Source: a virus. Taken from it: 47,751 bases of DNA. Both the position numbers and the translations under genes were made by a program. The DNA is taken from positions 1 to 47,751 of the IMG/VR virus record IMGVR_UViG_3300006754_000032. One strand, written 5' to 3'. A model generated the notes under the pieces. That model saw only the letters and a list, made by a program, of their open reading frames with translations. It searched no databases and was not told the DNA's origin. Of this stretch, positions 2,886 through 21,974 are shown one piece after another; positions within the stretch are counted from its first letter, which is position 1; each line of letters opens with the position of its first letter.

Positions 2886-4022
2886 ATGGATAAAGATATT
2901 ACTAGTGCATTGGATGCTATTGATAAAGTAAACCCCTTCGCAACTTATTTAGATAACAATTCACTCAGTCACGTTGGATCATGGATTGATACAGGATCTT
3001 ATGTGCTAAACGCAATTATTTCCGGTTCAATTCACGGCGGAATACCTAAAGGTAGAGTAACAGTACTTGCCGGTGAGTCGATGACAGGTAAGTCGCTTTT
3101 TGTCCAAAAAATTCTAGCCAAGGCCCAGGAGGACGGGCTCGTCCCTGTTATCTTTGATACTGAAAATGCTATTGACCCGGAAGGAGCTGCAAGATTAGGG
3201 CTAGATATTAGCAAAGTTAAATATGTTCCTTGTACTAGTATTGAACAAACTCGTAATTCACTGTATAAGTTTCTTATGGTGGTAAAAGAAAAGGGACTAG
3301 AGGGTAAGTTTATTGTAGCTATTGACTCACTAGCTAATCTTCAATCAGAGCTTGAACTGTCGCGGATGAGTAAAGACAGTGTTAGTTCAGATATGGGTAC
3401 AAAAGCGCGCGCAATGAAGACATTAATGCAAACTTGTACAAATTTAGGGTCAGTTACACAAACCACTATCCTATGTACTAATCATGTCTATGATGACCCA
3501 ACAGCTCTGTTTCCTTCTATTGAAAAAAATATGCCAGGTGGTAAATCATGCATTTATCTTCCATCAGTAACAGTTCAACTAGCACGCAAGCCAATGAAAT
3601 CAGATGGCGGTAAGACTGTTGATGGGGAATTGGCAGTTGGTCAGAAAAAATACGCTGGAATTATTATTAGAGCCCTTACGCGTAAAAATAGATTTATTAA
3701 ACAGTACCTTGAAGGTGAAATATACCTTTCATTTGCTTCTGGACTTGATCGCTACTATGGATTAGTTGATCTGGCCGTTGGTGTTGGTGCAGTAGTTCAA
3801 ACTGGAGCAACTTATCAGCTTGAAGATGGTACTAAGCTAGGCTATTATAAGAATTGGAGGAAGGATGTTAAACTTTGGGAAGAGACTATTCTTCCAAAAC
3901 TTGAAGAACGAATTAAAGATGAGTGGTCTTATAGTAATAAAGAAGAAGAGCCACCTGATGAATTAGGTTTAGATGGTTTAGATGATTTAATTAATGAAAA
4001 AGAAACTAGTACTGACTCTTAG
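2886..4022 (+). CDS. uvsX: UvsX RecA-like recombinase
   Basis: A 378-residue strand-exchange recombinase of the RecA/UvsX family, close to T4 UvsX in length. Walker A is GESMTGKS (residues 63-70). Walker B is FIVAIDSLAN (about 142-151). The C-terminal ~40 residues are acidic (EEEPPDELGLDGLDDL), as usual for phage recombinases. It forms filaments on gp32-coated single strands and drives recombination-dependent replication. The frame is open further upstream to a TTG at 2772, but that extension would translate the terminator and promoter, so the ATG at 2886 is chosen. The 3' end overlaps the queC start by 29 nt. Confidence 0.95.
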   Translation: MDKDITSALDAIDKVNPFATYLDNNSLSHVGSWIDTGSYVLNAIISGSIHGGIPKGRVTVLAGESMTGKSLFVQKILAKAQEDGLVPVIFDTENAIDPEGAARLGLDISKVKYVPCTSIEQTRNSLYKFLMVVKEKGLEGKFIVAIDSLANLQSELELSRMSKDSVSSDMGTKARAMKTLMQTCTNLGSVTQTTILCTNHVYDDPTALFPSIEKNMPGGKSCIYLPSVTVQLARKPMKSDGGKTVDGELAVGQKKYAGIIIRALTRKNRFIKQYLEGEIYLSFASGLDRYYGLVDLAVGVGAVVQTGATYQLEDGTKLGYYKNWRKDVKLWEETILPKLEERIKDEWSYSNKEEEPPDELGLDGLDDLINEKETSTDS

Positions 4023-4752
4023 TGGGGGAATGGACTCATCTGTGCTGTTGTATATGGCACAAGATAGAGGCTATGATCATATACATACCATAACCTTTGA
4101 CTATGGTCAAAGGCATAAACAAGAACTCGCTTGTGTTAAAAAACAAATTAATAATTTTAATAACATGTTTAGCGGGTGGTTTAATTTAAAGATTACTAAT
4201 AAGGTCTTAGATGTAAAGTATATTAAAGACATTGCGCCTACCTCATCTTTAACTAATAAAGATATTGATAATCCTAATATTAGCGAGATGGCAGGTGATG
4301 CACAGCCTGTCTCATACGTACCGTTTCGGAATTTAATGTTTCTATCTATTTGCTCGTCATATGCTGAAAGTGTAGGTGCAGATACAGTATGGTATGGTGC
4401 TGCACAGGTTGATTCACTAGCTGGGTATTGGGACGGTAGTGAAGAGTTTGTTAATGTAGTTAATGAAGTAACAGATCTTAATAGAGAGAACAGAATTAAC
4501 ATTGAAGCACCGCTTCTTGACATGTCGAAGGCTGCAATTGTTAAAGAAGGAATTAGACTAGGAGTTACATATGGTGATACATGGACATGCTATTCGAATA
4601 GAGAAGATGGGCTAGCTGATGCCACAACTCCGTCAAGTAGTATGCGAATAACGGGGTTTATTGATGCTGGGTATGAAGACCCTATTCAATATGTCCAACA
4701 GGAAAAGTTGGATGACCTATACAAAGAAAATAACTGCAAGGAGTGTGCTTAG
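3994..4752 (+). CDS. queC: QueC-like 7-cyano-7-deazaguanine synthase (divergent)
   Basis: QueC converts 7-carboxy-7-deazaguanine to preQ0 with ATP and ammonia. The PP-loop SGGMDS is at residues 10-15. The FDYGQRHKQE segment (35-44), VPFRNLMFLS (109-118) and the ending GFIDAGYEDP (221-230) are all family-typical. The start is fixed by the PP-loop, which forces a 29-nt overlap with uvsX. Oddly, the usual cysteine cluster (CGxCxxC before the LRxxGF-like segment) is missing. Cys199 of the TCY motif remains, but the region around residues 206-217 has Ala/Thr/Ser in place of three cysteines. A CxxC (C248, C251) appears at the extreme C-terminus instead. With the amidotransferase at 6664 it suggests deazaguanine modification of phage DNA. 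Assignment to the QueC family is strong; the exact reaction is uncertain. Confidence 0.88.
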   Translation: MKKKLVLTLSGGMDSSVLLYMAQDRGYDHIHTITFDYGQRHKQELACVKKQINNFNNMFSGWFNLKITNKVLDVKYIKDIAPTSSLTNKDIDNPNISEMAGDAQPVSYVPFRNLMFLSICSSYAESVGADTVWYGAAQVDSLAGYWDGSEEFVNVVNEVTDLNRENRINIEAPLLDMSKAAIVKEGIRLGVTYGDTWTCYSNREDGLADATTPSSSMRITGFIDAGYEDPIQYVQQEKLDDLYKENNCKECA

Positions 4753-6663: not shown

Positions 6664-7326
6664 ATGTGCGCTATTTTTGGATCGTTCGACAAAACAATGT
6701 TAGAGATTTTATACCAAGCTAATAAGGAGCGTGGTAATTTTGCTAGCAGCGTTGTATGCATATCAGATGATGATCAATATATCTCTAAACATGAAGGTGA
6801 TATAAATTTTGATAAGTTTAATTATGCTGGTAGGGAAAATATAGAATATCTTCTTGGGCATGTACAGGCACCTACTTCCGCTAAAAGAACCTGGAACTAC
6901 AACACATCTCACCCATTCGAATCTCTGACATGGCTGGTTAGTCATAATGGTGTTTTAACAAATGAGAAAAAACTAAGAAGAAAACATACAAGATTTTTAG
7001 AAAATCCCGTTGATACAGCGGTAATAGTTGAACTATTAGAAAAATTTACTCAGGTAAATAAAAACCCAGTTAATACCATAAAGCAAGTATTATCAATGTT
7101 AGAGGGGTCGTATGCTTTAAGTATGGTGCATTCTAATACTAACGATATCTATATAGCGAGAGTAGGGTCACTTCTTCACTATAATAATAAGGGCAACTAC
7201 TCTACAATGATGGGATCCGGTTATAAAATATTACCTGAAGGAATTATAATGAAGTTAAATAAAAAAACAAAACGATGGAATAAAGTAGGCACTTTTGAAT
7301 CCAAGTCACCGTTTACATTTGTATGA
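6664..7326 (+). CDS. class II glutamine amidotransferase
   Basis: A 220-residue stand-alone Ntn-type glutaminase domain that releases ammonia from glutamine. The nucleophile is Cys2 after Met removal (MCAIFGSF). Other family landmarks are LGHVQAPTS (~63-71), HPFESLTWLVSHNGVLTNEKKL (~82-103), the DTAVIVELL segment (~117-125) and LEGSYALSMV (~145-154). No synthetase domain is fused. In some phages that make 7-deazaguanine DNA, a related amidotransferase domain is fused to QueC. Here the two are separate genes about 1.9 kb apart, which suggests the same pathway. Asparagine-synthase-like or sugar-amidating roles with the adjacent glycosyltransferase are alternatives. Its stop overlaps the next start as ATGA. 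Confidence 0.88.
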   Translation: MCAIFGSFDKTMLEILYQANKERGNFASSVVCISDDDQYISKHEGDINFDKFNYAGRENIEYLLGHVQAPTSAKRTWNYNTSHPFESLTWLVSHNGVLTNEKKLRRKHTRFLENPVDTAVIVELLEKFTQVNKNPVNTIKQVLSMLEGSYALSMVHSNTNDIYIARVGSLLHYNNKGNYSTMMGSGYKILPEGIIMKLNKKTKRWNKVGTFESKSPFTFV

Positions 7327-7982
7327 GTAAAACATTTATATTTTCTGCTACAGCAGGTAAAAAAGAAGACTCAATGCTTTACAATACGTGTAAAGATGAA
7401 AATATCGACATCTTTATAAAAGAGTATAATAAAGAGTCTATACAAAAAACCTACAACAAGGCGATTGATTTTTCAATTAGGGAAGGAGTTAAAAACTTAG
7501 TATTAGTTCATGACGATGTAATACTCGAAGCTTTTTCTGAAAGAAGAATTGAAAGAAATTTTAAAAATTTTGATCTAATTGGTGTAGCTGGCTGCAATCA
7601 GGTCAAGCTCGAAAAGCCAGTTCTCTGGCATTTAATGGGCGGTGGCTTCGACTCCGGTAATTTAGTAGGCGCAGTTGCCCACGGTACTGAAAATCAAAAA
7701 AATATGGGAGGGTTTGGATTTTATCCAAATAGAGCTATTTTAGTAGACGGAGTTTTTCTCGTAATTAAAAGAAAAGTATTTAAAAAAATTAGATTTGATG
7801 AAACCTGTCCTTCTAAATGGCATTTTTATGATCTTGATTACTCTATGCAGTGTCATAAAGCCGGCTTTAAAGTTGGAGTCGGCGACTTTATTGTAACTCA
7901 TAAATCCCCCGGTCTTACTTCTTTTACTGAAGAATTTCAGAAGGGCGAAGATTGGTTTTTAGATAAGTGGAAAACCGAATAA
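7323..7982 (+). CDS. glycosyltransferase, GT2-like (GT-A fold)
   Basis: A 219-residue soluble enzyme resembling phage glycosyltransferase family 2-like proteins. The nucleotide-sugar/metal site is probably LVHDDVIL (residues 61-68, with Asp64/Asp65 as the DxD equivalent). Later landmarks are FYPNRAILVDGVFLVIKRKVF (~133-154), the acceptor-side FDETCPSKWHFYDLDYSMQ segment (~158-176) and the closing VTHKSPG. There is no membrane segment or signal peptide. It overlaps the amidotransferase by 4 nt (ATGA), so the two are probably translationally coupled and may act together. Targets could be modified DNA bases, virion proteins or host surface sugars; nothing here decides which. Confidence 0.82.
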   Translation: MSKTFIFSATAGKKEDSMLYNTCKDENIDIFIKEYNKESIQKTYNKAIDFSIREGVKNLVLVHDDVILEAFSERRIERNFKNFDLIGVAGCNQVKLEKPVLWHLMGGGFDSGNLVGAVAHGTENQKNMGGFGFYPNRAILVDGVFLVIKRKVFKKIRFDETCPSKWHFYDLDYSMQCHKAGFKVGVGDFIVTHKSPGLTSFTEEFQKGEDWFLDKWKTE

Positions 7983-8000
7983 CATATAATACCATAAGGC

Positions 8001-9308
8001 GTGAGTAAGTTAGACTTAGACTATTTTGAAAATGTTCTTATATATAAGTCCCTTACAGATAGTGGGTATTTGGCTTCTATTGCTGATTTTGTAAAGCCTG
8101 AATATTTTAAAGATAAAGCGATCGCTAGTATCTTTAATATTATTAAAGACTTTACAGAAAAAAGAAATAAGCTTCCAACAACGACAGAGATTAAGTCTTA
8201 CTTAGTATCAGATGAACAAAAGAACTCTTTTAAAGAGCTCGTTAAGACGTTTAGTGATATTGATAAGACTCTAGATAAAGAAGAACTATATGATAATACG
8301 GAACAGTTTCTTAAAGAGAAGGCCGTATATCATACAATGCTTAATGTAGCAGAAGATGTATCAAAAGGTAAAGTTGATACATCAGTCGTTTTAGATAAAT
8401 TTGAAAAATCATGCAACATTAATTTAGTAACTGATTTAGGACTAGAACTGTATGGTGATGTTGATAAGCTTATTGATGATCTTAACTGTGTTGAAAGATA
8501 TGTTCCAAGTAAATGGGAGTGGTTAGACAATTGTCTCGGAGGCGGTTTTTTAGAAGCTGGAAAAGCTTTATATGTGTTTGCTGGTGAGACAAATATTGGT
8601 AAGTCAATATTTTTGGGTAATATTGCCAGTAATATGGCTGAAGATGGTAAAAACGTTTTGTTAGTTACTTTAGAAATGTCTGAGCTGTTATATGCTAGAC
8701 GAATTTGTAGTAACGTTACAAAAATTCCAATGAAGCAGTTAGCTGAAAATGCACCTAGTATTAAACAGGCTATGAATGATCAAGGTGGTAAAATTTTTAT
8801 TAAAGAGTTTCCACCTGCCACTATTACGGCTAATCAATTAAAAGCGTTTGTTAAGAAGTTTCAAGAACAAGGCATTAAGCTAGATGCTATTGTATTAGAT
8901 TACCTAAACTTGATGCACTCACCTGTAGGTAATAACTCTTATGAGCGCATTAAACATGTAACTGAACAGGTACGTGCAATGAGCTATTTGTTTAACTGTC
9001 CTATTATTTCAGCCACACAGTTAAACCGAGCTGGGTTTGATACAGATAACCCTGATCTAGCAACAATTTCTGAATCTATCGGGTTGGCGGCCACTGCTGA
9101 TGCTATTATATCTATCTTTCAAAATGAAGAAGATAGAGGAATTGGAGTCATACGCTTAGGTATGATGAAAAACCGGTATGGTCCGCGTGGTATTACACAA
9201 GCTATGAGAATCGATTATAATACGCTAACAATCGAACAAGCTGATGATATCGAAATAGATGAAGATATGGATAATACTCTTAATGTATTAGCTGGGCTTG
9301 CATCATAA
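8001..9308 (+). CDS. 41: replicative DNA helicase, DnaB/gp41 family
   Basis: A 435-residue hexameric 5'-3' helicase, slightly shorter than T4 gp41. The N-terminal domain (to ~160) is the DnaB-type helical region. The RecA-like core starts at about 170. Walker A is GETNIGKS (195-202), followed by LLVTLEMSELLYARRI (the H1a region), Walker B AIVLDYLNL, and the ATQLNRAG motif with the arginine-finger region downstream. It works with the gp61-like primase at 14322. The start is GTG (MSKLDLDYF) with AAGG a few bases upstream; a TATAAT hexamer lies 10 nt before the start without a good -35 box. Confidence 0.95.
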   Translation: MSKLDLDYFENVLIYKSLTDSGYLASIADFVKPEYFKDKAIASIFNIIKDFTEKRNKLPTTTEIKSYLVSDEQKNSFKELVKTFSDIDKTLDKEELYDNTEQFLKEKAVYHTMLNVAEDVSKGKVDTSVVLDKFEKSCNINLVTDLGLELYGDVDKLIDDLNCVERYVPSKWEWLDNCLGGGFLEAGKALYVFAGETNIGKSIFLGNIASNMAEDGKNVLLVTLEMSELLYARRICSNVTKIPMKQLAENAPSIKQAMNDQGGKIFIKEFPPATITANQLKAFVKKFQEQGIKLDAIVLDYLNLMHSPVGNNSYERIKHVTEQVRAMSYLFNCPIISATQLNRAGFDTDNPDLATISESIGLAATADAIISIFQNEEDRGIGVIRLGMMKNRYGPRGITQAMRIDYNTLTIEQADDIEIDEDMDNTLNVLAGLAS

Positions 9309-16630: not shown

Positions 16631-16864
16631 ATGGAAAAACATAAATTTAAATTAAAAGATGGTTCAACGAAAACTATGGAATTTGATGAATTGGTTCGTT
16701 GGGCTTGCTTGGTAGAAGCACTGGAAGTAGTCGGGGGGAAGGAAGATATAGATATTGAAAGTAATAAATGGATTAAACCATTAGCATTTCAAAAATATAT
16801 TGATGAGCGATTCCACTCAATGAAGCACGATCTTAAAGTTGAAGCTACTCTAGGTAATTTATAA
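16631..16864 (+). CDS. hypothetical protein, 77 aa
   Basis: Small, unrecognised. It opens with a charged strand-turn-strand (KHKFKLKDGSTKTMEFDELV), followed by a helix with ACLVEALEVVGG, and ends with a charged helix. A TATAAT hexamer lies 10 nt before the ATG but lacks a good -35 element, and the gene may simply be the third member of the late operon starting at 15835. The stop codon abuts and overlaps the stop of the convergent glycosyltransferase gene at 16859. Confidence 0.72.
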   Translation: MEKHKFKLKDGSTKTMEFDELVRWACLVEALEVVGGKEDIDIESNKWIKPLAFQKYIDERFHSMKHDLKVEATLGNL

Positions 16865-17686
16865 TCCTAGCTCTTCTTTCACAGTTTGGATATACTCACT
16901 TGACACTTTATCTTTAAACTTGTCAATAACTTCGGTGGTATCTTTTCCAATTTCTTGGAAACCAATCATATAATTTCGGAACCGATCCTCTCTTGTTGGC
17001 TTAAACGGAGCTCCTAGTGGTCTTCCAAATCTATGTACCCATCTAAGAAACGGTAGGCATACTGATCGCCGACCCGCGTTGCGGTATTTTTCATGAATAT
17101 ACCCTTCTTCACCCCCAAACCCTCTAAACTTTTTGTTAAAGCCTAACCAGCTATCTTTTCTACATGTAAAGAGTCCAAGACCTTGAGCTTGGATTTCAAA
17201 TGGCTTCCCGTTAGGGTCATCACCCCTTTTATCTGATCCCCAGACGCCCCACATATCACTACCCCATTTATCTAGATCAAAATGAGTAGCTGTATTTTTC
17301 ATATCGTCATATAGTAGAGGGCCTTGCAATAAATTACCTTTATCCTTTCCAGCATCATAATAATCTAAAAGCTTTTTTAAGCTCCCCGGGTCAATTAATA
17401 CATGACAGTCCATTACTAATACGTATTCAGTATTCGCTAATCCAAATATTTTGTGTCTTAAAGAAGTTGCGGAAAATGCATCAAATTCAACATAAGTTAA
17501 AGGCTCTTTAATCCATTCAGCAAATTTACGTATCTCTCTTCCTTGTGGTGATTTTGGATTGTTATTAATAATAACAAATTCTAGTCGATCTAAAATTTCT
17601 TTATGATACAATCTTAAAGACTGTATTGTAAAATAAAGTCCTTCATAGTCGTCATAAACACAGGTTCCAATAGTAAGTTTTCCCAC
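16859..17686 (-). CDS. polypeptide GalNAc-transferase-like glycosyltransferase (GT27-like)
   Basis: A 275-residue GT-A fold enzyme. The N-terminus LTIGTCVYDDYEGLYFTIQSL is the nucleotide-sugar domain start. The metal motif is DCH (93-95, LVMDCHVLIDPGSL), the DxH form typical of polypeptide GalNAc-transferases. Then come FRGFGGEEGYIHEKYRNAG (188-205) and PFLRWVHRFGRP (212-223), which parallel the GGE...R...GG and V-x-H-x-F motifs of that family, including a possible third metal ligand, His218. It lacks the lectin domain, signal and membrane anchor of the animal enzymes, so it is cytoplasmic. The start is GTG at 17686, 11 nt after the Thr/Pro-rich fibre gene, which makes that fibre the obvious acceptor. 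Sugar donor and acceptor are inferred only. Confidence 0.85.
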   Translation of the reverse strand: MGKLTIGTCVYDDYEGLYFTIQSLRLYHKEILDRLEFVIINNNPKSPQGREIRKFAEWIKEPLTYVEFDAFSATSLRHKIFGLANTEYVLVMDCHVLIDPGSLKKLLDYYDAGKDKGNLLQGPLLYDDMKNTATHFDLDKWGSDMWGVWGSDKRGDDPNGKPFEIQAQGLGLFTCRKDSWLGFNKKFRGFGGEEGYIHEKYRNAGRRSVCLPFLRWVHRFGRPLGAPFKPTREDRFRNYMIGFQEIGKDTTEVIDKFKDKVSSEYIQTVKEELGL

Positions 17687-17697
17687 ATTATTAATTA

Positions 17698-20600
17698 CTA
17701 AAATTGCAAATTATTGCAATCCGGATCTTCGGGACATATCGTTGTAGTTGTAGTCGTTGGAGCCGGGGTAGTAGTCGTCGTGGTAGTAGTCGTCGTCGTG
17801 GTCGTAGTTATTATTTGTTCTTCTATTAAGAAAGGTACCTGCAGCGGTAGGATCGGCGCCGGGTATATAAACACCGGGTCCTCCGGTTCCGGTTCCGGTT
17901 GCGGCGGATCCGGCGGATCCGGCGGATCCGGCGGCTGCGGCAGTGGCGGTTCAACAATTATAGTCGGTGGCACCCTGGTTGGAGGAACAGTACATGGGGG
18001 CGGTGGAGTTGTGTAGGGCGGCGTCGTATAAGGCGGCGTCGTATAAGGCGGCGTCGTATAAGGCGGAGTTGTGTACGGTGGTGGAGTTGTGTAAGGTGGT
18101 GGAGTTGTGTACGGTGGTGTTGTAGGATCATCGTATATTTTAAAATCACCAGACGGTCCACCGTTCGTATAACCACCCGGCCAATTAGACCCGGGTAAAT
18201 CATTAGTATTCTCTAGACCGCTGGGTGTATCAATGACCTCTTCACGCGTGCTGGGATCTGTGACATCATCGTCCTCCTCCTCTAAATACGGATCAACAAA
18301 GACGTCTTTTTTAAGAAGAGGGTCGAGTCCACCGGAGTCAATGTCAATGATGGGACCTTCTTTGGTTTGGGTTGTATCATCCGTTTCCTCGATCTTTGTG
18401 CGAGGATCAGTAGGATCGAGGCCACCAGGGTCAATGATGGGACCTTCACTTCCTTCCCCGGCATTTGGATCCCATGGACCGGCCGCCGACATCCGCCAGC
18501 CAGATGGCAGCTCAAACGGGTCACTTCCTTCCCCGGCATTTGGATCATATGGGCCAGCCGCTGACATCACCCAACCGGGTGGCAGAATAGGATCAGCAAC
18601 CTGATCAGGTTGGTACGTTATTGGTTTTGAAGCTGATATTGCTTTATCAATATCAACTGTCTGCAAAACATAACTAGGCGACCCGGCATTATGGCTAAGG
18701 CGCTCCATTGCCGCATTAATCTCATTTTGAGTATCGGGGTTCCCATAAAAAGGTCCACCGCCGGTGGTTGTATGAGTCTCAACTAAAATAGGTGTGTTAT
18801 TAGTGTATATAAATGACGGAGCACTACTATCACCCCTTTCCAATAATTCTTGGAAACTACTCTCTGGTATAGGTAGAGCAATGCTTACAGTTTCAGGATT
18901 TGCTCCGCGCTCTGACCGGCCACGGTCGAATGTCATTACTCTTGGAATTGATTTTCTTTCCGCATCAACTGTAACAACATATGAATCCTGTAAAATATAA
19001 TTATAATCCGTACGTGGTTCAGGAACGGGGTAAATAGCAGTGTTTTCAACCGGTGAATCAAAAATTCCGACACTTATATCCAGACTGCGGTCGCCAATCT
19101 TGATTCTTTCAACAATATTTCTAGTTACTCTATTTCCATCTTTATCTATAAAATTTACAACGCCATCGGCACTATCACCCGGATACCGTACGTCCCAATG
19201 CTTGGACATTACGAAGTGAATTGGAGACACCATGGTTATTGATTTTTCTGTCGCGGCTCTCCAATTATTCGGATTAAAACCAACTCCACGTTCACTTATA
19301 CCTGATATATCCAATTTACCGGCAATTGGTAAGTTAGATACTAATAACCTGTTTATGAGTTTTTTAGTTTCAGACTCTGGTTCTGGACTTTCTCTTTGCT
19401 GTTGTACAGTTAAAGTGAATATCCGTGTTAGATATACTTGTATATCTTCCAATAACCACTCTGACAACATTCCGCTGGGGTCGTCCTCCACTCCACTGTT
19501 AATATCTGTAAGTCTTTGCTGATCAGCTTGTAGTCTTTGAGTGAGTTCCTCCAAACTTAAAGTTGGTAATATACTGTCTCTGAAACTCCTCCTCGCCTCC
19601 AACCGTCTTTGGTTTGCAGCATTTAAAAGCTCTTGCCGAGTCGTTTCATTTTGCTCACTTTCAGCTTCCTGTCGTTCTCTTTCTATTCTAGCTTCTTCAG
19701 CTATAGCTGCCTTACTCGCGGCGACCGCAGCCGCCTCTTCCTGTAACTGCCTTAATCTAGCCTGTTCTAGCGATTTTTGTTCAGCTTCATAAGCAGCCGC
19801 CTTCCTAGCTGCCACTTCAGCGTCACGTATTGCATCGGAAGTCGCTTCACCGGCTTTTGATAATCTACCGGCAGTGGTTGGCTTATCCGGTGTAGCCGCT
19901 GTATATAGCCTCCTACCTTGGGTGATCTGCTCCTCTGCTTTAGTTGCTTGCGCTGCTTGTGCAGTTGCTTCTGCATCTGCCTGCGAGCGTGCCGCTTCTG
20001 CTTCCGCTTTTGCTGCCTCAGCAGCCGCGAGCGCCTCTGCCGCGACCTCTGCCGCGGCCTGAGCTATGCTTTCCGCTTTTGCCTGTGCTGCTGCATTTGC
20101 TGCGGCTCGAGCCGCGGTCTGAGCCGCAGATTCCGCTGCTGTACGTTCCGCTTGCGCAGCCGCGGCATCTACCGCGGCCTGAGCTGCTAATTCTGCCGCT
20201 TCTGCTTCTGCCTGCGCAGATGCTTCCGCTTTTGCTGCAGCATCTGCTGCCCTCACCGCTTCCTCCTCCTGTTGTCGAAGTTGATCAACCTGTTCTTGCG
20301 AGATTCTAAATTCGTCTTGAGGGTTAGGTATATTTTGTGTTATCCTTTGTGATACAGGCTTACCTTCAACAAATTGCTGTAACGAAATGGTAACATCCAT
20401 ACTACCGTCTTCAGCAACTTGATCTGCAATAAGTGTTAACCCATCAGCATTTATATTTACCCATGGGGTGGGTAACCCCCATACAGAAGCAGGTGTAGTA
20501 CCACTAGCACCGTCCCAAAGCTCTTCTTTAGTTTGATAATCCTCAATAAAGATCTCAACCTCACCATCAAGCTCTCTAGATACTTGTACATAATCTACAT

Positions 20601-21075
20601 TAACAGTACCTGTTGTGTTTTTAAAAGAGTTTGGAGCTCCACCACCGCCCAGTTGAGGGTAAGCGACAACAGTCACACCAACATCTATTAGTCCAACGTC
20701 CGGGCTGCCTAAATTTGAAGCCGCAGGCTCTACCGCGGTAGTTGGCTGATTAGGATCCGTATCCTCTGTGTCCGCGGTTGATGGTCCCGTAACGACCGGA
20801 ACGACCGGATCAATTGGAGACACCGCACCTGGAGACACCGCACCTGGATTACAAAGCGCTGGGTCAGGTGGCACCTCATATGGGCCAGCCGCTGACATCC
20901 GGATCTCAGGCTGCACCTTATATGGCCCGGCTGCTGACATCCGCCAGCCGGGTGGCAGCTCCGGTTCACTTCCTTCCCCGGCATATGGATCATATGGCCC
21001 GGCCGCTGACATCAGCCAGCCAGGTGGCAGCTCCGGGTCACCGCCATTCACGGAATATGGATCATCTATTGGCAT
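17698..21075 (-). CDS. giant low-complexity fibre-like protein with mucin-like C-terminus, 1125 aa
   Basis: No catalytic domain is recognised. Layout: residues 1-70 carry three copies of the unit MSAAGPY, two of them with a preceding LPPGW. Residues ~130-260 form a beta-rich region. Residues ~262-480 are an Ala/Glu/Gln-rich helical rod, almost certainly a coiled-coil stalk. Residues ~530-830 form a second globular region. Two more MSAAGP[YW]DPNAGEGS units follow (~840-880), then an acidic linker, a stretch of tandem (T)TPP(P)Y units, PPDPPDPP repeats, and poly-Thr segments with a PAP interruption before the end ICPEDPDCNNLQF. It is likely a virion fibre or whisker-like protein. The start codon shares its A with the upstream stop (TAATG), and the GC-rich Ala and Pro parts differ from the surrounding AT-rich genes. 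Confidence 0.85.
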   Translation of the reverse strand: MPIDDPYSVNGGDPELPPGWLMSAAGPYDPYAGEGSEPELPPGWRMSAAGPYKVQPEIRMSAAGPYEVPPDPALCNPGAVSPGAVSPIDPVVPVVTGPSTADTEDTDPNQPTTAVEPAASNLGSPDVGLIDVGVTVVAYPQLGGGGAPNSFKNTTGTVNVDYVQVSRELDGEVEIFIEDYQTKEELWDGASGTTPASVWGLPTPWVNINADGLTLIADQVAEDGSMDVTISLQQFVEGKPVSQRITQNIPNPQDEFRISQEQVDQLRQQEEEAVRAADAAAKAEASAQAEAEAAELAAQAAVDAAAAQAERTAAESAAQTAARAAANAAAQAKAESIAQAAAEVAAEALAAAEAAKAEAEAARSQADAEATAQAAQATKAEEQITQGRRLYTAATPDKPTTAGRLSKAGEATSDAIRDAEVAARKAAAYEAEQKSLEQARLRQLQEEAAAVAASKAAIAEEARIERERQEAESEQNETTRQELLNAANQRRLEARRSFRDSILPTLSLEELTQRLQADQQRLTDINSGVEDDPSGMLSEWLLEDIQVYLTRIFTLTVQQQRESPEPESETKKLINRLLVSNLPIAGKLDISGISERGVGFNPNNWRAATEKSITMVSPIHFVMSKHWDVRYPGDSADGVVNFIDKDGNRVTRNIVERIKIGDRSLDISVGIFDSPVENTAIYPVPEPRTDYNYILQDSYVVTVDAERKSIPRVMTFDRGRSERGANPETVSIALPIPESSFQELLERGDSSAPSFIYTNNTPILVETHTTTGGGPFYGNPDTQNEINAAMERLSHNAGSPSYVLQTVDIDKAISASKPITYQPDQVADPILPPGWVMSAAGPYDPNAGEGSDPFELPSGWRMSAAGPWDPNAGEGSEGPIIDPGGLDPTDPRTKIEETDDTTQTKEGPIIDIDSGGLDPLLKKDVFVDPYLEEEDDDVTDPSTREEVIDTPSGLENTNDLPGSNWPGGYTNGGPSGDFKIYDDPTTPPYTTPPPYTTPPPYTTPPYTTPPYTTPPYTTPPYTTPPPPCTVPPTRVPPTIIVEPPLPQPPDPPDPPDPPQPEPEPEDPVFIYPAPILPLQVPFLIEEQIITTTTTTTTTTTTTTPAPTTTTTTICPEDPDCNNLQF
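17740..17815 (-). repeat. poly-threonine coding repeat
   Basis: Near-continuous runs of Thr codons (read on the plus strand as GTN triplets such as GTA, GTC and GTG), broken by a PAP insertion, encode the Thr-rich tail of the fibre-like protein. Mixed use of all Thr codons argues for selection on the amino acid rather than simple slippage. Confidence 0.85.
17902..17934 (-). repeat. 9-bp tandem repeat encoding PPD units
   Basis: Three perfect copies of CGGCGGATC (plus-strand sense) and a partial fourth encode the Pro-Pro-Asp run of the fibre. Identical codons show recent slippage-type expansion. Confidence 0.85.
18015..18122 (-). repeat. 15/18-bp tandem repeats encoding TTPP(P)Y units
   Basis: Three near-identical 15-bp units (AGGCGGCGTCGTATA in the plus sense) are followed by more diverged 15- and 18-bp units. 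Each encodes Y-T-T-P-P or Y-T-T-P-P-P. The gradient from perfect to diverged units suggests ongoing copy-number change at one end. Confidence 0.88.
18448..18586 (-). repeat. second cluster of MSAAGP repeat units (two copies)
   Basis: Two coding copies of a ~75-bp unit (LPPGW or LPSGW, then MSAAGP[YW]DPNAGEGS). They match the units at 20878-21030 near the N-terminus of the same protein, more than 2 kb away in the DNA. Confidence 0.82.
20878..21030 (-). repeat. first cluster of MSAAGP repeat units (three copies)
   Basis: Three MSAAGPY units, two with the LPPGW lead-in, span residues 16-66 of the fibre-like protein. The DNA keeps high similarity to the second cluster at 18448-18586, including the PAGEGS-type spacer. 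Confidence 0.82.
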
Positions 21076-21974
21076 TATGCTGTTATACTAGATACGGTAG
21101 TATATGGTTTATCTGGCAATGTGCATAAACTTGGAGTTAATACGGTTTCTGTGAGTACTTCACTTCCTTCATAACCTTCAACGTGAAAATCTCTCAGAAA
21201 GAAGTCTTTCGCGCTTAGTGAATATCCACCTGCAGCTGCAGGTGTAGTTGAAGAAATTGGAGTGCTAAATGCAAATCCACAATAGATATTATCTAAATTA
21301 GATAACGTACTATATCTAGACCCCATGTCAATTGCTGTTAGCAGAGTATACGTAGTGGTATTACTATCTCTTGAATCAATATATAGTGTTCTGCCCAAAT
21401 TAACATATCTAAATCGTAATGTTCTATATGTATCAGTAGATATAGTACTAAAACTAGTAGATATAGAAGATAAATGATTATAAGCCAATACATTATGTAA
21501 ATAGTCACGAACTACAATTGACTCTCTTAATAGCTGATTCGGCTTTACACCTGGACGATCGTCTCTCCCAGTTAATGCATAACGCCCGGTTGAATCAAAA
21601 CCAACCTTTACTAACATACCGCTTAATACAGCACCTTCTAGAAGAACTGTAGAATCGCCTTCAGTCTTTAATACTTCTGGTGTTTCCGTTAATAACGCAT
21701 GCGCAGATAATACAAATTCAGGGTCCTGATCACCGAGATATTGCCCAGGTAGAGTAGATATTGGTTGTACGAGATTTGTTAAAAAGGTTGAAAATCCTAG
21801 TTCATAGTTATGAAATTGAGCTGTTGAGCCAAAACTTGTACTAGGTAATTTATACTGAAAGGACCACGTAATATCATAATTCGAATTAAACGCTTTTTTA
21901 GACTCAACAAACGTATAATACCTTGCTAAAGAAGGTAATGATATATCAGACGGAAATCCTGCTAATGCTGCCAT
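21075..21974 (-). CDS. virion-associated protein with probable beta-sandwich (lectin-like) fold, 299 aa
   Basis: No named family. The sequence is dominated by strands with the rhythm of a legume-lectin/glucanase sandwich: ITWSFQYKLPSTSFG (~36-50), YELGFSTFLTNLV (~57-69), GMLVKVGFDSTGRYAL (~119-134), LRFRYVNLGRTLYIDSRDS (~186-204) and NIYCGFAFSTPI (~229-240). Calcium-binding or sugar-contact residues cannot be assigned. It is the last gene before the mucin-like fibre and overlaps its start by one base, so the two are coupled and may form one appendage. A late-type box lies 5 nt before the ATG. Confidence 0.78.
   Translation of the reverse strand: MAALAGFPSDISLPSLARYYTFVESKKAFNSNYDITWSFQYKLPSTSFGSTAQFHNYELGFSTFLTNLVQPISTLPGQYLGDQDPEFVLSAHALLTETPEVLKTEGDSTVLLEGAVLSGMLVKVGFDSTGRYALTGRDDRPGVKPNQLLRESIVVRDYLHNVLAYNHLSSISTSFSTISTDTYRTLRFRYVNLGRTLYIDSRDSNTTTYTLLTAIDMGSRYSTLSNLDNIYCGFAFSTPISSTTPAAAGGYSLSAKDFFLRDFHVEGYEGSEVLTETVLTPSLCTLPDKPYTTVSSITA

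Follow-up and report, generated by a model that had tools for sequence, protein, structure and literature searches.

Does a bacteriophage carry a mucin-type glycosylation system of its own, with an enzyme and its protein substrate encoded side by side? The question is raised by IMG/VR virus record IMGVR_UViG_3300006754_000032, a 47.7-kb marine virus of bacteria whose whole analysed stretch of 47,751 nucleotides (nt) is here called the window. In it, the gene for a 1125-amino-acid (aa) protein rich in threonine and proline is followed, after a gap of 11 nt and on the same minus strand, by the gene for a 275-aa glycosyltransferase. An earlier note on this DNA had likened the enzyme to the polypeptide N-acetylgalactosamine (GalNAc) transferases of glycosyltransferase family 27 (GT27) and had proposed that it forms a dedicated enzyme-substrate pair with its neighbour; both genes, the motif positions and the coordinates are as it described them, the substrate region that it placed at 17740-18125 corresponding to 17740-18123. 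Mucin-type O-glycosylation is generally seen as a feature of eukaryotes. Here we present computed evidence on the fold of the enzyme, its conserved residues, the pairing and order of the genes, and the Thr/Pro composition of the neighbour, which together make it rather probable that a GT27/GT60-like phage polypeptide glycosyltransferase O-glycosylates threonines of the protein encoded just upstream, itself probably a virion protein.

Predicted fold and conserved residues of the enzyme

The translation of the enzyme gene contains the motifs DCH (residues 93-95), GGEE (191-194) and VHRF (217-220), and we take the GGE motif to be equivalent to that of GT27. An AlphaFold2 model made with 39 viral sequences reached a predicted local distance difference test (pLDDT) score of 93.1 and a predicted template modelling score of 0.91. 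When this model was compared with the PDB by Foldseek, ranks 1 to 50 were all polypeptide GalNAc-transferases (best E 6.2e-13), and VIA-align gave Z scores of 20.0-24.1 for 29 polypeptide GalNAc-transferase entries, led by 6nqt_F (Z 24.1, root-mean-square deviation 2.6, 252 residues), with the next entry, a chondroitin polymerase, at Z 18.8. Because GT-A enzymes share a core, the step in Z outweighs the size of Z as evidence. The relation appears by fold only, since sequence searches of solved structures gave no GT27 entry: none was found with the single enzyme sequence, and the best match of a profile was 6h1j (E 0.0026).

D93, H95 and H218 are shared, without exception, by 39 viral enzymes and 80 bacterial relatives, and in all of these sequences DxH replaces the DxD metal motif of GT2 (the viral alignment, A1, was picked for diversity and omits L067, which has a stop codon in the matched range, and L075). 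By analogy with the literature on GT27 and GT60, D93-x-H95 and H218 are putative metal ligands. Two papers describe DxH in place of DxD in both families, which carry out polypeptide Ser/Thr O-glycosylation and are grouped together (PMC7185993), and, for GALNT1, a DxH motif, Asp209, His211, His344 and Mn2+ (PMC4202792).

The window enzyme is thus like the animal and Toxoplasma GT27 enzymes in its predicted fold over residues 1-275, in its DxH and C-terminal His, and in having a Thr/Pro-rich presumed acceptor, but unlike them it is a stand-alone 275-aa protein of a phage, has 12-16% identity to them and lacks the lectin domain of the animal enzymes. The closest solved structures, being GT27 enzymes, bear out the comparison made in the earlier note. 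GT60 comprises the Skp1/mucin-type polypeptide alpha-N-acetylglucosamine (GlcNAc) transferases, which the enzyme resembles in its DxH. The GT60 family PF11397 is absent among the 18 families listed for the 39 members at E of at most 1, no GT60 entry was recognised among the structure matches listed, and Glyco_transf_7C (PF02709) appeared in five of the 39, too weakly for assignment (best E 0.048). With no lectin domain and neither PF02709 nor PF11397 established, we call the enzyme GT27/GT60-like and file it in neither family.

The best viral structural match is A0A6J7WYC1, a BFVD predicted structure from an uncultured Caudovirales phage (TM score 0.88, E 1.3e-24), which has 28% identity to the window enzyme and is described only as a GT-A domain protein. 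A search of GenBank phage records, a set that may lack those closest to the window, gave no relative of the enzyme at E 1e-5, and another member of the family used as query gave three weak matches (E 0.5-0.8).

Threonine-rich neighbours in viruses, bacteria and sister phages

The 1125-aa protein carries seven TTPP(P)Y units and TTPPPPC, four PPD repeats, and Thr runs of 14 and 6 residues (Table 1); its C-terminal 161 aa comprise 40 T, 50 P and a single S. Three different codons are used within each Thr run; the tract is accordingly no mere repetition of DNA letters and is kept at the protein level. In IMG/VR, 262 stretches encode relatives of the enzyme, of which the best 80 were taken; with the window these make 81 loci, or 47 clusters at 90% identity. 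An open reading frame (ORF) was counted as Thr-rich if it had at least 10 T in some stretch of 30 aa. By this cut-off the ORF that ends immediately upstream of the enzyme qualifies in 62 of the 81 loci (61 without the borderline L035). Among the remaining ORFs of these loci, which include tandem copies of the partner, 27 of 1,228 qualify, and the association lies beyond chance. Counted by cluster, the adjacent ORF is Thr-rich in 36 of 47 by the bare cut-off and clearly so in 35; the cluster of L034 and L035 is not counted because only the 287-aa neighbour protein of L035 passes (10 T in 30 aa), and it is not mucin-like. A Thr-rich gene lies somewhere in the locus in 39 of the 47 clusters. The co-occurrence expected from the earlier note is found, and an enzyme standing without a partner in most relatives is not what these best 80 of 262 display. 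In length the partners range from contig-cut pieces up to more than 2,400 aa.

Twelve clusters remain. In L057 the Thr-rich gene adjoins the enzyme gene but is encoded on the opposite strand, in L063, L076 and L079 such a gene lies nearby, L056 is uninformative, its contig end leaving 16 aa upstream of the enzyme, and the other seven are weighed below. A second IMG/VR scan covered 80 of 272 matches. Seventeen additional loci represent 14 enzymes when grouped at 90% identity, all of them below 90% to any enzyme of the first set; a Thr-rich ORF adjoins 7 of the 14 and lies in the locus of 10, and one of the four misses has only 215 nt upstream. As a separate observation, L079 has an ORF (6949-8004) that by its Cys-rich start alone resembles a radical SAM enzyme; it overlaps the enzyme gene by 4 nt, and Thr-rich genes lie on both sides.

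A GTDB scan found 117 bacterial relatives, of which 80 were taken (42-52% identity), and these span several phyla. Thr-rich ORFs occur in 42 of the 80 loci, with 40 Thr-rich stretches within 3 kb of the enzyme and 8 beyond, against an expected share of 43% (p 1.3e-8, a value in which tandem copies are not independent and some frames may be spurious). In nine of the ten loci whose neighbours were inspected, the enzyme lies within a larger ORF of 604-827 aa. When nine bacterial enzyme ORFs were run against family libraries, PqqD matches appeared in L088 and L118 and HPr-kinase-related matches in L105 and L101 (E 1e-21 to 1e-4), and in four others the extra match was weak or lacking. The PqqD domain binds peptides, so a peptide substrate would be more likely. 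The ninth ORF, from Bradyrhizobium (L086:6405-8888), joins an NAD-dependent epimerase (a clear match) and the glycosyltransferase, which hints at a donor of the uridine diphosphate (UDP)-Gal or UDP-GalNAc type. Epimerase-like ORFs, likewise a hint only, lie within 3 kb of the enzyme in 5 of the 80 loci by motif, with two more at 3.2-4.1 kb. A sulfotransferase as a constant bacterial partner was considered and rejected, its motif occurring in 3 of the 80 loci; this is an undercount, for Pfam detects a sulfotransferase in L118 that the motif overlooks.

An RR...W-x-[KRQ]-P leader marks proteins encoded in 27 of the 80 bacterial loci; 19 of the 27 reach at least 10 T within 25 aa, for the most part beyond a PAHA-like site. 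L084, L092, L121, L138, L156 and others encode, near the glycosyltransferases, a family of small proteins with an RR...GG...LP..WTKPVV...PAHA leader and often Thr-rich C-termini. Several loci have two or three copies in tandem, and the family gives the impression of a secreted glycoprotein or peptide system not yet described. Separately, proteins adjacent to the enzyme in L110, L119, L132 and L133 read as a PqqD-like N-terminus joined to a Thr-rich C-terminus.

The ORF adjacent to the enzyme ends in a conserved tail of the pattern C-x(n)-C-[NK]-x-[LI]-x-[FYW] in 60 of the 81 viral loci, tandem copies have it too, and the single occurrence of the pattern in the bacterial loci is in an apparently spurious ORF. 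In a tree of 47 viral rows and 40 bacterial rows (every second one of the 80 loci), whose root is not fixed, viral and bacterial rows form the two sides of one branch (Shimodaira-Hasegawa-like approximate likelihood ratio test, SH-aLRT, 100), and tail-bearing rows fall in a viral subset of 42 rows (SH-aLRT 94). The pairing with a Thr-rich protein may predate the tail, which is missing from the Thr-rich partners in L063, L076, L079 and the bacteria.

An anchor independent of the enzyme is provided by the 299-aa gene next to the Thr-rich gene. It gave 42 loci, of which 31 are informative and 11 are not because the contig ends too soon; the enzyme-bearing ones are largely the same contigs as in the first scan. 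The enzyme is present in 23 of the 31, 19 of them with a Thr-rich gene, and missing in eight. Seven of these eight keep, in the same place, a long gene with the same kind of tail, followed directly by a convergent gene of 76-104 aa, and an enzyme profile search of the records of these seven found no enzyme. The residue that follows the last Cys of their tails is N, D or S, and in four of the seven D or S takes the place of N/K. In the eighth, L289, a fragmentary 15-bit match to the enzyme profile with two stops lies near 2471-2707, between the anchor and convergent genes, and could be chance or a decayed remnant; L290 has a similar 15-bit fragment with stops, and neither was counted. The frequent presence of the tail beside the enzyme had first suggested a recognition tag, an idea ruled out by the seven sister loci that keep the tail without the enzyme and contradicted as well by L063, L076, L079 and L036, which pair the enzyme with Thr-rich proteins that have no tail. 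The tail is thus not there for the enzyme, and our guess is that it functions in assembly or anchoring.

Among the anchor loci, the mere presence of a Thr-rich region predicts the enzyme weakly (19 of 23 with it versus 5 of 8 without), and only the composition of that region separates the two groups. Thr stretches of enzyme-bearing phages are of a Thr/Pro kind, with P 10-28% and D+E 2-10% in all 12 loci measured of the 19 that are Thr-rich; those of the sisters are Thr/acidic, with P 2-9% and D+E 16-28%, in five of the seven counted and lacking in two (ten loci without a detected enzyme were measured, and L283, L274 and L279 are cut short). The proline cut between the groups is thin, at 10 versus 9%; L283, cut before the place of the enzyme, has P 10% and D+E 10%, and 4 of the 35 enzyme-adjacent clusters exceed 10% D+E (L026 15.8%). 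Such a contrast would fit a transferase that favours proline.

Counter-evidence and other possible targets

Several results weigh against a GT27/GT60-like enzyme that acts on its threonine-rich neighbour. The only Pfam match of the enzyme above cut-off is PF00535, of GT2 (E 2.8e-8), a family matched in 39 of 39 viral members, and the C-terminal ricin-type lectin domain of animal GT27 is absent from its 275 aa, in which Pfam finds PF00535 only. Seven of the 47 viral clusters (L027, L030, L032, L034, L037, L072 and L078) have no mucin-like ORF in the locus, and in three of them no ORF has at least 10 T in 30 aa across 80.0 of 80.6 kb, 44 kb and 34 kb of contig DNA; L291-L294 have no mucin-like ORF either, and of the two enzyme types that they represent, one comes from the contigs that also gave L203-L205. 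Among the bacteria, 38 of the 80 loci, some cut short, have no Thr-rich ORF by the cut-off used, and the PqqD and HPr-kinase matches lie below curated cut-offs, that of L118 being equal to one. Five enzyme-less sister loci retain Thr-rich regions, albeit acidic and Pro-poor, and the contrast between phages with and without the enzyme draws on few events, for the tree of the neighbour gene requires no more than three changes and independent pairs do not reach significance. For the dedicated pair of the earlier note, adjacency in 35 of 47 clusters stands in its favour, whereas the seven clusters without a partner and the sister phages that keep the gene without the enzyme do not accord with it.

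Clusters of this kind would suit a protein O-glycosyltransferase that acts chiefly on some other protein of the virion or the host and for which its Thr-rich neighbour is a minor or former substrate, and in L032, L034, L035, L037 and L038 the enzyme gene does directly follow that of a 287-aa neighbour protein (10-12% T, 10-11% S). We consider this unlikely, since in other respects adjacency and Thr/Pro composition form a strong pattern in phages of many kinds, and the bacterial enzymes too have Thr-rich proteins, of another type, in their vicinity. The GT2 match, joined by weak GtrB-like PHROG matches in six and two of the 39 members (best E 0.00059), might instead point to an enzyme that modifies a host surface glycan of O-antigen or capsule type and so blocks superinfection, with the Thr-rich neighbour an unrelated fibre spacer. 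That appears more doubtful still: the closest fold is that of peptide-specific GalNAc-transferases, above the best other entry, the motif is DxH and not DxD, the gene lies directly behind a probable structural gene, and the bacterial homologues include ORFs with PqqD-like parts. Glycosylation of phage DNA, a role reported for phage glycosyltransferases in PMC12619734, is hardly credible here, given a GT-A fold nearest to polypeptide transferases, a position in the tail gene block and the pattern of partner proteins.

Gene neighbourhood, proposed mechanism and meaning

We assign the window to the T4-like phages from its gene content, which includes DNA polymerase, UvsX, a DnaB-type helicase, a gp32-type single-strand binding protein and baseplate wedge. 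All 2,461 GenBank phage records that match its DNA polymerase have less than 60% identity (at most 31.6% among the matches listed). A minus-strand block at 16859-42287 runs from baseplate-wedge genes through collar-type fibres to the 299-aa gene, the Thr/Pro-rich gene and the glycosyltransferase, and from this block the 1125-aa product is probably a tail- or fibre-associated virion protein. It has no Pfam match and no PHROG match better than E 0.5.

Table 1. Positions of the enzyme gene, the proposed acceptor and its parts, and adjoining genes in the window
Feature	Position	Strand	Details
Glycosyltransferase, GT-A, GT27/GT60-like, 275 aa, GTG start	16859..17686	-	D93-x-H95, GGEE 191-194, H218, R222
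Thr/Pro-rich protein, 1125 aa, proposed acceptor	17698..21075	-	End of baseplate/fibre gene block
TTPP(P)Y tandem units, aa 985-1028, proposed O-glycosylation sites	17992..18123	-	Repeat scan and translation
Poly-Thr tract T14-PAP-T6, aa 1090-1112, proposed O-glycosylation sites	17740..17808	-	Translation
Conserved C-terminal tail CPEDPDCNNLQF	17701..17736	-	Family pattern C-x(n)-C-[NK]-x-[LI]-x-[FYW]-end
Domain aa 595-860 with invariant His, Asp, GDSS-x-P	18496..19293	-	Alignment A2, 7 sequences
PPGW-MSAAGPYDP repeat block	18446..18585	-	Tandem repeat, period 75
PPGW-MSAAGPYDP repeats, N-terminus	20864..21065	-	Tandem repeats, periods 42 and 72
299-aa neighbour gene	21075..21974	-	Adjoins Thr-rich gene in many relatives; enzyme-independent anchor
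Convergent 77-aa gene	16631..16864	+	Directly after enzyme; directly after Thr-rich gene in enzyme-less sister phages

The PPGW-MSAAGPYDP repeats flank the middle part of the 1125-aa protein. The pattern of invariant residues in its domain at aa 595-860 resembles that of a trypsin-like serine protease; Pfam gave no match above cut-off for this domain, and its AlphaFold2 model is of low confidence (pLDDT 41). Elsewhere in the window, a QueC-like gene (3994-4752) and a glutamine-amidotransferase-like gene (6664-7326) each match one half of a single PHROG, phrog_10428.

A cellular arrangement offers a parallel in gene order. In Streptococcus mutans, according to PMC5856776, pgfS lies directly downstream of cnm and is co-transcribed with it, and the GT-A enzyme PgfS is required to modify Cnm, which has a Thr-rich region; WapA, another target of PgfS, is more proteinase-sensitive in a pgfS mutant. 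The window likewise has its glycosyltransferase gene directly downstream of that of a Thr-rich protein, but PgfS, in the same text, is cellular and not of a phage, is membrane-bound, and works with PgfM1, PgfE and PgfM2. Structural proteins of mycobacteriophages are glycosylated at their C-termini (Freeman 2023, as cited in PMC12619734 and PMC12691614); unlike the proposed modification in the window, those glycans are described there on capsid and tail tube, not on a Thr/Pro-rich protein encoded next to the enzyme. A GT27-like phage enzyme with a mucin-like partner was not reported in the literature searched, a search short of most subscription papers.

Activity, sugar, linkage, location in the virion and biological use, as we infer them, would be as follows. 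In the cytoplasm of the infected cell, D93-x-H95 and H218 of the enzyme would bind a metal together with the nucleotide-sugar donor, a UDP-sugar of the host. The reaction would be a retaining transfer, probably of an N-acetylhexosamine (GalNAc or GlcNAc), and its acceptors would be Thr residues in the TTPP(P)Y units and poly-Thr tracts of the upstream gene's product. The sugars would turn the region close to the C-terminus of a tail-associated virion protein into a rigid, mucin-like stretch, and the conserved Cys/CNxLxF tail of that protein would serve assembly or anchoring and not the enzyme. Protease resistance, stiffness, spacing or shielding are possible uses, and the earlier note's suggestion of tuned adsorption or masking may be another.

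The repeated pairing in related viruses, looser in bacteria, suggests that a mucin-style sugar coating may exist in microbes. A general prokaryotic system of mucin-type O-glycosylation would consist of a GT27/GT60-like enzyme and a dedicated Thr/Pro-rich acceptor, in bacteria with larger enzymes that include PqqD-, HPr-kinase- or epimerase-like parts and are encoded close to small poly-Thr proteins of a secreted type (with RR...W[TMS]KP...PAHA leaders), and in T4-like phages with a stand-alone enzyme that coats a tail-associated protein. Taken jointly, this wider reading seems to us evenly balanced between holding and failing; such a system may be the prokaryotic counterpart, perhaps ancestral, of eukaryotic mucin glycosylation. 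Since sister phages differ in the presence of the enzyme and keep the same kind of protein and C-terminal tail, a clear test is possible. If the pairing is what we propose, it would supply compact enzymes together with their natural Thr/Pro acceptors, and phages would have gained a genetically encoded means to stiffen, protect or shield a part of the virion.

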